Shown: piece after piece, positions 1,358-16,751 of the stretch
Layout: each line of letters starts with the position of its first letter
How positions within the stretch are numbered: the first letter of the stretch is position 1
NCBI GenBank assembly: GCA_945787015.1
Contig: CALZGM010000003.1
Coordinates: 95,493 to 159,492 of the forward strand
From: an uncultured Roseburia sp.
GTDB lineage: Bacteria > Bacillota > Clostridia > Lachnospirales > Lachnospiraceae
Direction of reading: 5' to 3'
DNA: 64,000 nucleotides
Notes under the pieces: generated by a model
Databases searched by the model: none
The model's input: only the letters and a program-made list of their open reading frames with translations
Told to the model about the DNA's origin: nothing
Translations under genes and position numbers: made by a program

Positions 1358-4018
1358 ATGAGATTTATTGGAATTACCGGCGGAGTCGGTGCAGGGAAAA
1401 GTGCGATTTTACAGTACTTAAGTGAAAAAGAGCATACAAAAGTCATGCTGGCAGATGAAATTGCCCATAACTTAATGGAGCCGGGAACGAAATGTTTTGT
1501 GCAGCTTGCGGAAAAATTTCTGGAGGAAGATATTTTTGCACCGGATGGCAGCTTTGACCGCAAAAAGCTGGCAGGTATGATTTTTTCTTCTGATGAAAAA
1601 CGTCGGAAACTGAATGCGATTGTACATCCTGCAGTGAAAGAATATGTCAGGGAACAGCTTCGAATCGAACGGGAAAAAAACGAACTGGAGTTGTTGGTTT
1701 TGGAAGCTGCACTGCTAATTGAAGAACGGTATGATGAGATTTGCGATGAATTATGGTATATTTATACAACACCGGAAAATCGCGCAAATCGTCTGATGGC
1801 GTCCAGAGGATACTCAAAGGAAAAGGTGGAGCAGATTTTTGCGAGCCAGCTACCGGAAGAAACATATCGCGAAAAGTGTAAAGTTATCATTGACAATAAT
1901 GGAGATTTATCGGAAACTTTTTTACAGATAGATCAAGCGTTGACAAAGGAGAAGATAGTCAGAATGGAACAGCCATTTGTATTTGGATTGGATATCGGGA
2001 CAAGAAATGTTGTAGGTACAGTTGGATACCGAGAGGATGAGCATAGCTTTATCGTGGTGGCGCAATGCATTATGGAGCATGAGACCAGAGCAATGATTGA
2101 CGGTCAGATTCATGATATTGGAAGGGTCGGAAAGACGATTGCAAAAGTAAAAGAGCAGCTGGAAGCCCAGATAAAACAGCCGTTAACCGAAGTGTGTATT
2201 GCTGCCGCAGGTCGTGTGTTAAAGACGATAACCGTAAATGTAGAATATGAATATCCGGAAGAAACGGTGGTAACCAATGAAGATGTACATACTCTGGATT
2301 TGCTTGGAATTGAGAAGGCACAGATGCTTTTAAAAGAACAGAATGATACGAAATATAAATTCTACTGTGTCGGTTATACCGTAGTGAAATATTATTTAAA
2401 TGATGAAATCTTTTCCAATGTAGTAGGACACAAGGCAGATAAAATTAGTGAAGATATCATAGTTACTTTCCTTCCGGAAGATGTAGTAGATGGTTTGTAT
2501 TCTGCGGTTAATCTGGCAGGACTTACGGTTGCTAATCTGACCTTAGAGCCTATTGCGGCTATTAATGTAGCGATTCCGGAAGCTTTCCGTATGTTAAATA
2601 TTGCTTTGGTGGATATTGGAGCGGGAACTTCCGATATTTCTGTAACAAAGGACGGCAGTATCATTGCTTATGGAATGATTCCATTAGCCGGTGACGAGTT
2701 AACAGATTTGATTGTGCAAAATTATCTGGTTGATTTTAAAACGGCGGAGCAGATTAAGCTTGCCAGCGGAAGCGGGGAGCCGATTACCTATAAGGATATT
2801 ATGTTGATTGAACATACCATTCCGGCAGAAGAGGTATGGGAGCTGACAGCACCGGTTGTAGACCGTATGACTAGTGCAGTTGCAGCTAAAATTAAAGAAT
2901 TGAATGGGGATAAATCTGTCAGCGCAGCGTTCATTGTAGGCGGAGGCGGAAAAATCCATGGCTATACCGAGATGCTTGCGGAAAAACTTTCCATTGTGAA
3001 AGAGCGTGTGGCATTGCGAGGCGAGGAAGTGTTGCAGGAGGTTCATTTTGAACAGGAAGGAATTAAAAAGGATCCATTACTGGTAACACCAATCGGTATC
3101 TGCCTGAATTATTACGACCAGCATAATAGCTTTATTATGGTGCATATCAATGGAGAGCGCATTAAGCTCTATAATAATAGCAAGCTGACGATTATGGATG
3201 CAGCATTACAGGCAGGCTTCCAAAACGAAGATTTGTTCCCGAAACGCGGAAAAGAGATTCACTATACGGTAAATGGTGTGAATCGGGTAATCAGAGGTGT
3301 GGCAGGCGAATCTGCAATTATTACGATGAATGGGAAACAGGTTGGAATTACTGCGCCTTTAGAGCCAAATGCTGAAATTGAAATTGTCTTGTCTACACGC
3401 GGCGAAGATGCGGTACGTCAGGTGAACCAACTGGAAGAGTTCCAAGGACAGGAAGTAAGCTTTATCGTTAATGGTAAAAAAATAGTCTGTCCGAAATTTG
3501 TAGAGGTAAATGGCAGGTTAGAGCCTGGTACCTATGAGATTATGGATGGAGATTCGATTGAGACAAGACCATTCTATACGGTTGCGCAGGTAGCGGAGTT
3601 TATGGATGTGAAAATAGATATGACACAGGAAGTCCGTGTAAATAATCTTGAAGTGGGAACGGATGCACTTGTCTATGATAATTTTTCCATTGAATGGGCA
3701 ACATTGGATTTTGCAGAAGCAGAGGAACAATCTGTGGAACAGAACATAGATGAGATGCCGGAGGAAGAAAAAGCCACAGAGGATGAAGTGCCGGTTCCTA
3801 AGTTAATCAAGGATGTGCAGGTGTATATCAATGGAATCCCTGTTTTATTGGAAGGCAAAAGTGAATACATATTTGTAGATATTTTCGATTTTTATGCCTT
3901 TGACTTAAATGCCGGAAATGGAAGAGAGATTATTACAAAATTAAATGGAGAAAATGCACAGTTTACGGCTGTCCTGAAGGAAGGCGACCGTATTGAACTG
4001 GCTTGGAAAGAGTTTTAA
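1358..4018 (+). CDS. coaE: Dephospho-CoA kinase fused to an FtsA/PilM-like actin-fold ATPase
   Basis: Residues 1 to about 200 are a full-length dephospho-CoA kinase (last step of CoA synthesis), with P-loop GGVGAGKS near residue 8 and the usual 200-residue length. Residues about 203-886 form a separate protein type. It has an actin-like ATPase core of the FtsA family (phosphate-1 GLDIGTRNVVG, phosphate-2 VDIGAGTSDIS, adenosine motif VGGGGKIHG), then a long C-terminal region of about 340 residues containing an acidic linker and no recognisable FtsA membrane-targeting helix. The frame is continuous, with no stop between the two. An in-frame ATG at 1964 (residue 203) is preceded by AAGGAGA at 1946-1952, a good ribosome binding site, so the second half may also be made alone. 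In related bacteria I expect two genes; here they are joined, or the stop was lost. Only the CoaE half justifies the symbol. The role of the actin-like half is unproven. Confidence 0.9.
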   Translation: MRFIGITGGVGAGKSAILQYLSEKEHTKVMLADEIAHNLMEPGTKCFVQLAEKFLEEDIFAPDGSFDRKKLAGMIFSSDEKRRKLNAIVHPAVKEYVREQLRIEREKNELELLVLEAALLIEERYDEICDELWYIYTTPENRANRLMASRGYSKEKVEQIFASQLPEETYREKCKVIIDNNGDLSETFLQIDQALTKEKIVRMEQPFVFGLDIGTRNVVGTVGYREDEHSFIVVAQCIMEHETRAMIDGQIHDIGRVGKTIAKVKEQLEAQIKQPLTEVCIAAAGRVLKTITVNVEYEYPEETVVTNEDVHTLDLLGIEKAQMLLKEQNDTKYKFYCVGYTVVKYYLNDEIFSNVVGHKADKISEDIIVTFLPEDVVDGLYSAVNLAGLTVANLTLEPIAAINVAIPEAFRMLNIALVDIGAGTSDISVTKDGSIIAYGMIPLAGDELTDLIVQNYLVDFKTAEQIKLASGSGEPITYKDIMLIEHTIPAEEVWELTAPVVDRMTSAVAAKIKELNGDKSVSAAFIVGGGGKIHGYTEMLAEKLSIVKERVALRGEEVLQEVHFEQEGIKKDPLLVTPIGICLNYYDQHNSFIMVHINGERIKLYNNSKLTIMDAALQAGFQNEDLFPKRGKEIHYTVNGVNRVIRGVAGESAIITMNGKQVGITAPLEPNAEIEIVLSTRGEDAVRQVNQLEEFQGQEVSFIVNGKKIVCPKFVEVNGRLEPGTYEIMDGDSIETRPFYTVAQVAEFMDVKIDMTQEVRVNNLEVGTDALVYDNFSIEWATLDFAEAEEQSVEQNIDEMPEEEKATEDEVPVPKLIKDVQVYINGIPVLLEGKSEYIFVDIFDFYAFDLNAGNGREIITKLNGENAQFTAVLKEGDRIELAWKEF

Positions 4019-8789: not shown

Positions 8790-10730
8790 ATGAACGAAAG
8801 AAGGCTTGTTTATACAAAAGAAAACTGTGTTGGATGTAATCGCTGTATCGGAGTGTGCCCATGTCCGGGTGCGAATGTTGCCACAGTAAACGAAAACGGA
8901 GAAAATAAGATTGAAGTAGATTCTACAAGATGCATTGCATGTGGTGCCTGCTTTGATGTGTGTGAACACAACGCACGTGCATTCGATGATGATACACAGC
9001 GTTTTTTTGATGATTTAAAAGCCGGCAAGAAAATATCCATTCTTATTGCACCTGCATTTAAGGCTAATTATCAGAAGGAATACGAAAAATATCTTGGGCA
9101 GTTAAAGGCCTATGGCGTGAATCGTATGATTAGTATTTCATTTGGTGCAGACATTACAACTTGGGCATACATAAAATATATTACTGAAAATCATTTCTAT
9201 GGTGGAATATCACAGCCATGTCCTGCAGTTGTTGGATATATTGAAAAATATATACCGGAGCTTATTCCAAAGCTTATGCCGGTACATTCTCCAATGATGT
9301 GTGGAGCAATCTATGCAAAAAAATATATGGGCGTGAAAGATGACCTGGCATTTATCAGTCCATGTATTGCTAAGAAAAATGAAATTGATGATACAAATTG
9401 TGGCGGATATATTCGCTACAACGTTACCTTTGAACATTTGGTTGATTATTTAAAGAAGAATCCAATTAGTGCAGAGCCTTTCACAGATGAAATAGAGTAT
9501 GGTCTTGGCTCTATCTATCCTATGCCTGGTGGGCTTAAGGAAAATGTATACTGGCTATTGGGAGAGGATGCATTCATTCGCCAGATCGAAGGTGAAAAGC
9601 ATATGTATCATTATCTTGATAAAAATAAACATCTTATTGCTGATAATAAGACGCCATACCTTTTTGTTGATGCGCTAAATTGCTCCGGTGGTTGTATTTA
9701 CGGAACAGGAATTGAAGAGTCAAAGAATGACGATGAAGGCATTTTTATGGAAATCCAGAAAATCAGACTGGATAGTAAAAAGGATAGTAAGAAGAATGGC
9801 CCCTGGAGTAGAAAACTTACCCCTGAAAAACGTCTTAAGGCTCTTAATAAGCAGTTTGAAAACCTAAAATTAAGTGATTTTATTCGACATTATACAGATA
9901 AAAGTGCAAGTTGCAAGAATGCAGTTCCATCCAAAACAGAACAGCAAACTATTTTCCATACTATGATGAAAGATACCGTTGAGTTACAGGGAATTAACTG
10001 TAGCGGTTGCGGGTATGATACTTGTCATGATATGGCCGTGGCCATTTTTAATGGTTTTAATTATAAAGAGAATTGTGTATTCTATGAAAGAGATTTGGCA
10101 ATCAGAGAAAGAGCCGAAAATAAGGCACTTCTGGATGAAATTCATTCGCAAAAAGAGGAAGCGGACAGACTTAAGGAAGATGTTGTGGAACGAATTAATG
10201 AGAGTTTTAATGATCTTGGAACTACTATTATGACGATTGAAGAAGGATGTGTTCAAAATACGAACGATAGTATGTCAATCTCTGAGGCTATGAATACAGT
10301 TACGGCTTTTTCAGAAGAACTGCGGTCTGTATTAAATCGTATAAACGAATGTTTAGCTCTTCTTTCAAAGAATAATCAGGATGTCATTAACATCGCAGAT
10401 CAGACAAACCTTTTGGCTCTTAATGCTTCCATAGAGGCTGCGCGCGCGGGAGAAGCCGGCAAGGGATTTGCGGTTGTTGCGGGTGAAATCAAGGTGCTGG
10501 CTGAAAATTCAAGAAAGACTGCAGATGATTCAAATTATAATAATGATGAAGTGCAGAGACTATTGAATGAGTTATCCCAAAATGCAGAAAAACTTTCGGA
10601 AGTTATTGCCGGCGTTAACGACAAAACGCAGAATCTGGTGGCTTCAGCAGAGGAAACTACATCTGCAATGGATGTGGTTGCAAAAACTCTTGATGAGGCA
10701 AGAGATAGATTAAAAGAGATGATGGTATAG
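8790..10730 (+). CDS. [FeFe]-hydrogenase-like sensor fused to a methyl-accepting chemotaxis signalling domain
   Basis: A 646-residue soluble protein with four parts. (1) A 2[4Fe-4S] ferredoxin domain with two CxxCxxCxxxC motifs (Cys 13/16/19/23 and 48/51/54/58). (2) A [FeFe]-hydrogenase large-subunit domain, residues about 80-330. All four H-cluster cysteines are kept in diverged motifs: SQPCPAV (Cys144), SPCIAKKNE (Cys192) and NCSGGC (Cys298, Cys302). (3) A 4Fe-4S Fes-type domain with Cys 404/407/412/429. (4) A coiled coil and MCP hairpin with tip [20 protein letters not shown] near residues 537-556. The proton-relay Cys of the usual TSCCP motif is replaced by Pro (QPCP), and the SPQQMF-like segment reads SPMMCG, so catalysis may be weak and the role may be sensing H2 or redox state. 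There are no membrane segments. The protein ends at an ordinary stop whose last base begins the adjoining repeat element. Confidence 0.88.
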
Positions 10731-10910
10731 ATATTTAGCTCACTAAATTATTTTAACATAAAGTAGTTACACAATAAGAAAGAGTATCCTTTATTTTTAG
10801 ATGCGGTTATAAATGTATAAGAAACTCTTCATTCCAAAACGCACTTAAAATAAAGGATACTCTTTCTTATTGCAATCTACTTTATGAAAATAATTTATTG
10901 AAGCTAGATA
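10730..10910. repeat. Inverted-repeat unit 1
   Basis: The arms run roughly 10730-10805 and 10840-10910, with a 34-base loop between them. A 26-bp core is perfectly inverted (10772-10797 against 10847-10872). Outside it the arms keep pairing with small bulges out to GATATTTAGCT on the left and AAGCTAGATACC on the right. Confidence 0.85.
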
Positions 10911-10945
10911 CCAGCTTTAAAAACTTCGTAAGCCTTGGGAAGCTA

Positions 10946-11260
10946 GGATTTAGTTGCAGAATTTAATTTATCGTTACGTATATTGAAGAGAGAAAGAGAC
11001 AGACATTTTTTATGTTCGTTTGGGAGCATACTAGAAGTTCTTTATCTATACTTCACAGACAGCGGGAAAATGGCATGGATGCCATTTTCAACGGCAAGTG
11101 ACATGGATGTCACTTTGCCGTGACGCGTAATGATGAATAAAAATTTCATGTATAGATAATAGAACTTCTTATATGCGTACATACGAATAGAAAAAAGTCA
11201 GTCTCTTTCTCTCTTCCTCAATATACAAAACTATAAATCTAAATTCTGCACTAAATATCT
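10946..11260. repeat. Inverted-repeat unit 2 with twin inner hairpins
   Basis: The arms 10956-11051 and 11150-11250 align as inverted repeats at about four positions in five over about 100 bases, including GAGAGAAAGAGAC and AGAAGTTCT blocks. The roughly 98-base centre carries two more hairpins. The apparent compensating changes and short indels suggest folding or old duplication rather than a recent perfect palindrome. Confidence 0.82.
11067..11121. repeat. Twin hairpins with identical ATGGAT loops
   Basis: Hairpin A (11067-11088) has arms AAAATGGC / GCCATTTT around ATGGAT. Hairpin B (11091-11121) has arms ACGGCAAGTGAC / GTCACTTTGCCGT, with one extra base, around the same ATGGAT loop. They sit side by side at the centre of unit 2. 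Neither is followed by a T-run, so they are not ordinary terminators. Confidence 0.85.
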
Positions 11261-11272
11261 TTTTATATCCTA

Positions 11273-12589
11273 TTAAAATGAAACCCGGATAATCTCCTGC
11301 GCATACTCGCTTTTTGGTGTTTTTTTGCATTTATAAGCACAAATCTGCTCATACAAATCTGCAGCAAAAATATCTGCTTTCAGCATTTTTATAACATTTT
11401 CATCTAAGTAGGAGGAAGCATCTGCAAGTTTTGAGATAATCGGTACGTTGGTGTAAGATTTCAGCTCTTTTAGTAGAGAAGAAGCATCCTTTCGAAATCC
11501 AAGTATTCGCAGATAAGGAATATAATCCAATTCCTTACCAAACAGATAATCCTGATTGGTAATTCCAAGAATGAAATGTAGCAGTACACGGCTCATTCTG
11601 GTATAAGTCACATCCTTGCTTTTGCATAATTCGCAGAACTGCTCAAAGGAAGAGAAACTCATGCGATTTTTAAAAAGCCGGTTTGCAATATCAGGGGTTG
11701 AGTCCCCGATGTCTGCCAAAAAATCTGAATCTGTTGTCAGTAATCGATACCCTAAAATAGAAGAAAAATCGTTTGCCTGAATCAGAGAATCAGTTGACAA
11801 ATAATCTTTTAAAATCTCTAATGCGGTGGCAGGCATAGCGGAGGTAAATACCTCTGTAAACTGACATGCATTTTCGTTAGAAATATGCCCTAAGAACTTA
11901 CGAATTGCCGTTGCAGAAGCGGTAGGAGGGCTATCTATATCGGTCAATGAGGGTGTATCCAAAATCTTATCTTCATGATATCCGGCACCCTCACGCATTA
12001 TCAAATGAGGTGTCATAGAAGAATTTCTGCGTTTTATCGCTTTGAGATATTCAATTGCTAAGATGTTATTTGGTTCATTTAATATAGAAGAGACCGTTTC
12101 AAAAGCATACTTGCAAGAGGGGGCATCCGAAGCAGCAAAATAATCGCAAAGAGCTCTGCTTCTTGCAACCGGGAAGGAAAGTCCTTCTTTTAAATAAGAG
12201 GATAATGCATTACGATAGAGAATAGGTTCCTTTACTAACACTTCTGCAATCATGGAAAGTAATGCTAAATCATCCGTTTCTGCACCAAAACAGATACCAT
12301 CAACACATCTCATTTTATCAAAGAGAGTAACGCCGGCCATAGCAAAATATTCTGCAGAAGAAGTAGCCCATAATACGGGTAGTTCCATGACCAGGTCTGC
12401 ACCACAACCCAAAGCCATTTTTGTACGGGTATATTTATCTGCAATGGCAGGAGTGCCACGCTGCACAAAATTACCACTCATAGCAACTACAACAAAGTCT
12501 GCATGGAGTTCTTCCTTTATTTTTTTTATCTGATATGCATGTCCGTTGTGAAACGGATTATACTCTGCAATAATACCAATGATTTTCAT
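11273..12589 (-). CDS. tmcAL: tRNA(Met) cytidine acetate ligase
   Basis: A 438-residue nucleotidyltransferase-fold protein (formerly YlbM). In Bacillus the family activates acetate with ATP and acetylates the wobble cytidine (C34) of elongator tRNA-Met. The N-terminus GIIAEYNPFHNGH contains the HxGH-type nucleotide-binding motif, and GNFVQRGTPAIADK and CGADLVMELP are family segments. Length fits the family. It is divergent from ackA and convergent with the hydrogenase-MCP gene; its 3' end abuts the 530-bp repeat element, which may double as its terminator. Confidence 0.93.
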   Translation of the reverse strand: MKIIGIIAEYNPFHNGHAYQIKKIKEELHADFVVVAMSGNFVQRGTPAIADKYTRTKMALGCGADLVMELPVLWATSSAEYFAMAGVTLFDKMRCVDGICFGAETDDLALLSMIAEVLVKEPILYRNALSSYLKEGLSFPVARSRALCDYFAASDAPSCKYAFETVSSILNEPNNILAIEYLKAIKRRNSSMTPHLIMREGAGYHEDKILDTPSLTDIDSPPTASATAIRKFLGHISNENACQFTEVFTSAMPATALEILKDYLSTDSLIQANDFSSILGYRLLTTDSDFLADIGDSTPDIANRLFKNRMSFSSFEQFCELCKSKDVTYTRMSRVLLHFILGITNQDYLFGKELDYIPYLRILGFRKDASSLLKELKSYTNVPIISKLADASSYLDENVIKMLKADIFAADLYEQICAYKCKKTPKSEYAQEIIRVSF

Positions 12590-15725: not shown

Positions 15726-16751
15726 ATGCAGGAAATGACAAAGGTTGTAGTGGATGCAATGGGTGGAGACTACGCACCGGCTGAACCGGTTAAAGCTGCA
15801 GTAGATGCTGTTAATGGAGCGGACAATATAAAGGTCGTGCTTGTAGGACAACGGGATGTGGTCGAAGCAGAGTTAAGTAAGTATACTTATCCAAAGGAGC
15901 AGATTGAGGTAGTGCATGCAGAGGAAGTGATTGAGACTGCTGAGCCACCTGTAAATGCGATTCGCAAGAAAAAACAGTCGTCCATGGTCATAGGTATGAA
16001 CATGGTCAAGAATAAAGAAGCAGATGCCTTCGTTTCATCAGGAAGTTCCGGAGCTGTTTTGGTAGGAGGACAGGTTTTGGTAGGACGCATCAGAGGGATT
16101 GAACGTCCACCGCTTGCGCCACTCATTCCTACAGAGAAGGGAGTTTCCTTATTGGTTGACTGTGGAGCAAACGTGGATGCAAGAGCATCACATCTTGTAC
16201 AGTTTGCAAGAATGGGTTCCATCTATATGGAACATGTTGTTGGAATTAAAAATCCTCGCGTTGCGATTGTAAATATCGGTGCTGAGGAAGAAAAGGGAAA
16301 TGCGTTGGTAAAAGAGACGCTTCCTTTATTAAAAGAGTGTACAGATATTAATTTTATCGGCAGTATTGAAGCGAGAGAGATTCCAAAGGGCGGAGCAGAT
16401 GTGATTGTTTGTGAGGCATTTGTAGGAAATGTAATTTTAAAGCTATATGAGGGACTTGCTTCTACCTTAATCAGCGTAATTAAGAAGGGATTAATGAGTA
16501 CGCTTGTAAGTAAGATTGGTGCTGCATTAGCCTTGCCGGCTCTTAAGAAGACGTTAAAGGCTTTTGATGCTACGGAATATGGCGGAGCACCTTTGCTGGG
16601 GCTTAATGGTTTAGTTGTGAAAACACATGGCAGCGCGAAGGCAGTTGAGATTCGAAATGCCATTTATCAATGTGTAACATTTAAAGAGCAAGACATTAAT
16701 GGAAAAATCAAGAAAAATATTATATGTTCGGATGAACAGGAAGGGATGTAA
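15726..16751 (+). CDS. plsX: Phosphate acyltransferase PlsX
   Basis: A 341-residue enzyme making acyl-phosphate from acyl-ACP, the donor for PlsY (encoded here at 44708). The N-terminal [12 protein letters not shown] and the segment [14 protein letters not shown] are family signatures. The ATG at 15726 is used because GGAG is 8 bases upstream; an in-frame start at 15666 lacks a site, and an ATG at 15735 is also possible. It is followed after 2 bases by acpP, so synthesis of the two is coupled. Confidence 0.95.

Follow-up and report, generated by a model that had tools for sequence, protein, structure and literature searches.

What occupies the space between two convergent genes of an uncultured Roseburia, where some 530 bp of DNA form two large palindromes, is the question raised by this locus. 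Within the window, the whole stretch of 64,000 nucleotides that was analysed, a first-pass annotation had described two palindromic units enclosed by an outer inverted repeat of 9 bp, had proposed either a tandem pair of related, possibly mobile miniature units or a very large structured RNA, and had recognised no named class. The analysis reported here places the sequence as one copy of a modular, dispersed repeat that carries an RNA of a known family at the tip of one unit.

A modular palindrome in many copies

The left-hand gene (8790..10730, + strand) encodes an Fe-hydrogenase C-terminal domain and an MCP signalling domain by Pfam, and is a sensor-type hydrogenase judged by these domains. 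The right-hand gene (11273..12589, − strand) belongs by Pfam to the HIGH nucleotidyl transferases (PF05636), and we take it to be TmcAL. The element fills the gap between the two, as annotated: the TAG stop of the left gene ends at 10730, a base that is also the element's first, and the stop codon of the right gene starts at 11273, 14 bases past the element's last base. An empty version of the locus was sought through the right-hand gene, which is matched in 54 genomes and for which 30 loci were fetched (the host and 29 relatives). In 2 of the 29 relatives there was a hydrogenase-like match, 36-38% identical in the MCP part; neither synteny for the window locus nor an empty site was thus obtained.

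Inverted-repeat and fold analysis, together with the other copies, delimited the whole element, which as such has no strand, to 10730..11259, comprising two palindromic units and a linker. The left outer end, GATATTTAG (10730..10738, + strand), starts on the final base of the TAG (10728-10730) that closes the left gene, and the right outer end, CTAAATATC (11251..11259, − strand), is a perfect inverted copy of it followed by TTTTT; because this 9-bp repeat ends at 11259, the right edge was set there and not at 11260. Unit A (10730..10912, − strand) measures 183 nt and has no tip in the window copy, unit B (10946..11259, + strand) measures 314 nt and bears TwoAYGGAY at its tip, and the linker between them (10913..10945) is itself an imperfect hairpin. 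In unit A the arm blocks reach 29 nt at 97% complementarity, and those of unit B are 71-92% complementary. The perfect outer repeat, the two units of about 180 and 315 bp, the variants of the unit-end motif and the absence of a coding frame (the longest stop-free run is 62 codons) were thus all confirmed. Folded as RNA, the + strand reached −219 kcal/mol compared with −98 ± 5.4 in 100 shuffles (z −22.4), and the − strand was about as extreme (z −20.3).

Searched at the DNA level, the 59 contigs (3.3 Mb) of the host genome yielded 93 element matches, from whose edges 54 outer ends with flanks were mapped by reading, in agreement with the expectation of multiple copies with the same kind of ends at other loci. 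As many copies sit at contig ends, the 54 ends correspond to roughly 27 to 54 elements. The end type is (TA)GATATTTAG...CTAAATATC(TA), with RTATTTAG as the common end. The host has 14 copies of TwoAYGGAY (RF01731). The fullest element copy (C25:13826-14486) bears this RNA twice, in unit A (− strand) and in unit B (+ strand); unit A of this copy (C25:13826-14137) holds about 120-130 bases more than that of the window copy, which contain the − strand TwoAYGGAY, and unit A at C13 also bears this RNA. One copy (L093) lacks both tips, and another (L094) reads as an A/B chimera. The element is therefore modular, given that tips are lost and that other unit types and a chimera occur among the copies; one to three units in a row, joined by linkers, were seen per copy.

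Several copies depart from this plan. A third type of palindromic unit, with a different tip and without TwoAYGGAY, lies at L095 (G000:C24, about 16350-16525, G000 being the host), has the same ends and adjoins a TwoAYGGAY unit. Other repeat-like sequence is apparently nested between the units of a copy of about 1.1 kb (L092, G000:C32:32600-34358). Two element ends flank a 303-aa ORF at L224 (G000:C25:83-994), for which a Pfam search gave no family and which by eye is like PD-(D/E)XK/Rpn-type proteins. At least 30 host contig ends fall inside element copies by eye (for example C5:1, C14:1, C21:6, C23:1, C29:1 and C37:1, with C7, C9, C10, C24 and C53 as further contigs ending in this way), and since so many contigs begin or end inside copies, these repeats are a main cause of assembly breaks in the host draft.

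Of 40 genomes searched by DNA match, two gave the element, namely the host and its sister genome G021, whose flanks on one contig are 91-95% identical to those of the host. Within the genus, 24 of the 60 genomes have RF01731, with a maximum of 38-39 copies per genome; across species the arms and ends of its stems differ and the tip is kept. Paired tips are oriented outward: among the 298 places listed for 18 genomes, all 13 TwoAYGGAY pairs at most 1 kb apart, from 8 genomes, are (−,+), and within 3 kb there are 17 (−,+) and 2 (+,+) pairs, one G014 and one G016 pair among the outward ones being orthologues. Two widely spaced, orthologous pairs (2.1-2.2 kb) enclose a gene that is secreted-nuclease-like by eye, and no transposase.

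The tip RNA and the level of selection

RF01731 at the tip of unit B (11019..11183, + strand) scored 106.3 bits against a cut-off of 43 over the complete model (1-168) and is the sole above-threshold Rfam match in the whole window, so that the earlier verdict of no named class was wrong for this tip. Besides a covariance score above the gathering threshold, the sequence has the two hairpins with AYGGAY-type loops, both reading AUGGAU on the + strand (loop 1 at 11075..11080, loop 2 at 11103..11108). These lie 28 nt apart, the median in units with both loops being 29. Our search detected two GGA-loop hairpins in 68 of 105 units and both in the window copy; the GGA of hairpin 1 is lost in 4 of 11 aligned host-family units.

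Two earlier papers bear on this RNA, Weinberg et al. 2010 and Gardner and Eldai 2014. The portion of the former considered here (PMC2864571) lists TwoAYGGAY as a probable RNA that is probably not cis-regulatory and has no assigned function; neither its position at the tip of a dispersed palindrome nor outward pairing is described in that portion. The corresponding part of the latter (PMC4333381, 2014) gives TwoAYGGAY as predicted to bind CsrA, with validation then in progress. Paired GGA hairpin loops, as in a CsrA sponge, are present in the window copy. CsrA is the leading candidate and would most likely be the protein bound by the tip RNA. A CsrA gene was found in 56 of 60 genus genomes, the host included, and in 30 of 30 high-quality genomes; being near-universal in the genus, its presence was rejected as a discriminator.

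Whether the hairpins are kept as RNA or as DNA was judged from mispairs. An RNA-kept hairpin tolerates G-U on the sense strand and does not tolerate A-C, whereas a DNA-kept one should yield equal counts. The main test scored GU and AC symmetrically in 105 units from 15 genomes, a set that holds 6 of the host's 14 RF01731 copies and counts related copies separately; it was drawn up without L070, L072, L075, L078 and L082 (strand absent from the listing), L066, L067, L076 and L077 (cut by contig ends, or from G021) and L073, L085, L197 and L198 (second copies of one place). The two tip hairpins gave 37 GU versus 9 AC (p 4e-5) and the core stem 99 versus 60 (p 0.002), together 136 versus 69, whereas the outer arms gave 342 versus 414 (p 0.01 in the opposite direction). 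Bootstrapping, with the genome as the only level of resampling, placed the GU fraction at 0.54-0.78 for tip plus core and at 0.40-0.50 for the arms. Two smaller arm counts, both overlapping the 105-unit set, gave GU 20 / AC 17 in the first 8 host-family units, obtained by applying a motif rule to 17 source loci, and GU 141 / AC 164 in 41 other units. The tip was not significant in a smaller 47-unit set (10/4 and 41/33), six host units had no hairpin GU bias (1/3), and a tRNA control on the acceptor stems of 5 tRNAs was uninformative, with 0 GU and 0 AC.

These counts indicate RNA-level selection that is restricted to the tip, none being seen in the long arms. Since the arms have no GU excess, they are kept palindromic at the DNA level, or equally on both strands. 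That palindromy itself is maintained follows from compensatory double changes at 31 of 99 pairs (11 units, two arm types). Accordingly, the proposal of a very large structured RNA survives for the tip (RF01731, GU excess) and falls for the long arms; the arm changes do preserve pairing, as had been noted, and the selection on folding that they were said to suggest holds, as RNA, for the tip but not for the arms.

Gene ends and turnover

About half of the host ends abut a stop codon: at 29 of 54 outer ends, a stop lies within −6 to +3 nt. Only stops that close open runs of 240 nt or more were counted; a 39-codon ORF seen by eye at C11 is not among them. With the boundary shifted 10-230 nt outward, the same was true of 151 of 11,626 positions (1.3%). 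Seven more host ends lie 7-31 nt from a stop. Within the window, 5 of the 56 gene ends have a simple hairpin that starts at most 6 nt away, and the closeness of native terminators therefore explains only part of the abutment. In G016, abutment is looser, with 6 of 46 unit edges at most 12 nt from a stop (runs of at least 240 nt), a count made by eye on imprecise edges. Across 39 units from several species a gene was called on 69 sides, and on 48 of these it is directed toward the element. On the + strand of the window copy TTTTT comes directly after the stem, and other host ends are mostly CTATTT-like. Judging by position alone, the element appears to stand in for an ordinary bidirectional terminator between convergent genes. 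One gene, at G000:C37:16585 and at G021:C8, has a frame that in both species apparently closes on the TAG of the end motif TATTTAG, and the element may thus supply its stop codon.

The slots turn over fast. Sixteen host slots were matched to G021 and their terminal 50-60 nt scored against four end types; the tally leaves out the G021 contigs C312, C209, C264 and C27, which either stop short of the element end or have no counterpart site in the host. The end type is the same in five slots (host/G021: C25/C88, C24/C67, C21/C46, C11/C277 and C1 left/C73) and different in nine (C26/C283, C37/C8, C1 right/C121, C35/C165, C30/C182, C6/C21, C53/C215, C57/C147 and, with an ambiguous host type, C25:1544/C81), and two slots have no element in the host (C41/C94 and C5/C293). 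At C25/C88 the left flank alone matches, with about 79-82% identity. The genes at C41/C94 are, on our assumption, asnB-like and PAP2-like; the host slot at C41 has a compact bidirectional terminator right after the asnB-like stop and before the PAP2-like gene, and in G021 an element end lies directly at the PAP2-like stop. The terminator site at C41 may itself be a remnant, and at C5 the host may have kept a scar. Both flanks of one G021 element map to two different host contigs, which fits recombination between copies. Inversion of the whole element as the source of slot differences was rejected at C1, where the left unit is of the same type and the right unit of a different one.

Change in place was followed between the close relatives G016 and G014, whose flanks are mostly 95-98% identical. 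Three of 13 compared units are inverted within the same flanks (L199/L306, L202/L084 and L216/L308), and the other 10 keep their orientation; L304, L313, L315 and L320 were not counted, their matches lacking flanks, stopping at the element or being complex. At four further G016 sites the G014 counterpart is shorter: a deletion between AAAG repeats left part of one arm at L209, remnants are left at L201 and L204, and at L207 an outward pair has collapsed to one chimeric unit. Clean transposition was rejected at all four, which bear deletion scars or chimeras, and as far as the sequences tell, the differences look like hairpin-driven deletion and inversion. Two stretches present in G016 only, of about 330 nt (L197) and about 205 nt (L203), proved not to be this element; the latter (about 3366-3571), with inverted ends CAAACTTCCCATAT/ATATGGGAAGTTTG, is absent from the same place in G014 and looks like an unrelated miniature inverted-repeat insertion.

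Competing explanations and related systems

The annotated tandem pair of related miniature units is real, and its dispersal supports mobility, but no target duplication, mover or clean transposition was found. The short perfect terminal repeat, the lack of coding capacity and the many copies would suit a classical MITE whose 9-bp terminal repeat is the recognition site of a mobilising DDE transposase, but in the seven two-ended host copies read by eye no target-site duplication was seen. TA stands at both junctions in some copies only, where it is also expected from palindromic flanks, the ends vary, and units are exchanged between slots. The precise placement of the element at stop codons is, to our knowledge, not typical of MITEs, and we regard such an origin as decidedly improbable. 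Membership of the REP/BIME/REPIN group would make the element a non-autonomous palindrome that a RAYT (Y1) transposase mobilises in the form of single-stranded DNA. This agrees with dispersed extragenic palindromes that are near stops, lack a target duplication and, in 13 of 13 listed pairs, oppose each other as BIME-1 units do, and the host does have one Y1_Tnp protein (L150). Opposite orientation and nearness to stop codons are described for REPs in the consulted parts of two papers (PMC2817692, PMC12306157), and the part used of a third gives their usual size as 20-40 nt (PMC3733652), against the 183-314 nt of the units here. GTAG or CGTC is close to 8 of 54 ends and absent near 46, which is not the constant foot tag of a REP. 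No element copy adjoins the host Y1 gene, G016 (one contig, 38 copies) has no Y1 match, and Y1 matches occur in 9 of 24 RF01731-positive versus 11 of 36 negative genus genomes; RAYT was rejected as the mover because Y1 presence does not follow RF01731. As the tests of size, tag and RAYT flanked by repeats failed, the element was not filed as REP/BIME, an assignment that we hold to be improbable. Neither plasmid and phage collections searched by blastn nor viral contigs searched with one exact 32-base pattern contained an element match; the exact pattern matched one genome contig, from the sister MAG. No autonomous partner with the same ends was seen among the fetched copies, and the literature search found no papers on transposons that target terminators, nor any on miniature inverted-repeat elements of Lachnospiraceae that contain noncoding RNA.

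The two remaining alternatives differ in what selection would act upon. That all 530 nt form a single giant structured RNA selected as such is suggested by the very strong fold, the compensatory changes and the Rfam RNA at the tip, yet it is hardly credible given arms without a sense-strand GU excess (20/17 in 8 units, 342/414 in 105), a fold about equally strong on both strands, and arms and ends that vary between species while the tip is kept. Conceivable, if on balance unlikely, is a neutral selfish palindrome, for which stop-to-stop sites are the least harmful places to insert and whose RNA tip serves the element and not the host. Fast turnover, internal deletions and the failure to find RF01731 in 36 of 60 genus genomes speak for it; the RNA-level conservation of the tip and the outward pairing, which is constant, argue that something is under selection, and harm avoidance alone does not predict abutment at zero distance.

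The element is probably a dispersed BIME-like repeat of about ten times the normal size, which serves convergent genes as a common 3′ end and exposes a protein-binding RNA. The modular palindrome occupies gene 3′ ends, often stop to stop between convergent genes. As a DNA palindrome, it would give a large 3′ hairpin to the transcript of either strand and might therefore act as a shared terminator or 3′ stabiliser. Upon sense transcription, the TwoAYGGAY tip would present two GGA-loop hairpins to a protein, most likely CsrA. Spread and remodelling would proceed by palindrome-driven recombination, through tip deletion, in-place inversion and chimera formation, possibly aided by some transposase acting in trans. 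A more speculative extension, which we think rather unlikely, is a self-spreading regulator that takes over shared convergent 3′ ends and multiplies outward pairs of CsrA-decoy RNA, with tip inversion switching which gene's transcript bears the decoy; if so, the number of copies and the way they face would set the tuning of the global CsrA network.

RF01731, an RNA without established function that came previously from sequence surveys only, is hereby linked to a dispersed, constantly reshuffled DNA repeat. It gains a genomic setting at the tips of palindromes at gene 3′ ends, outward when paired and in many species of one gut genus, in which its function becomes testable. The element also offers a case in which RNA selection can be separated from the maintenance of a DNA palindrome within one unit.

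Among known systems, the BIME-1/REP sequences of enterobacteria and pseudomonads, in the parts of the accounts consulted (PMC2817692, PMC12306157), are likewise mosaics of opposed palindromic units that are extragenic, in some cases near stops, and preserve complementarity. Unlike these, the present element has roughly ten-fold larger units, an Rfam RNA at its tip and stop-to-stop placement, and it shows neither a RAYT association nor a constant REP tag. Mycobacterial MIRUs, as presented in the portion consulted (PMC12548453), are small repeats located precisely at a translation signal and thought to be mobile, but they sit at start codons and are not giant palindromes between convergent genes. 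The sponge sRNAs of the Csr/Rsm systems, such as CsrB and RsmZ, likewise carry several GGA-loop hairpins; those are dedicated sRNA genes, whereas here the GGA sites ride on a repeat, in up to about 39 copies per genome.
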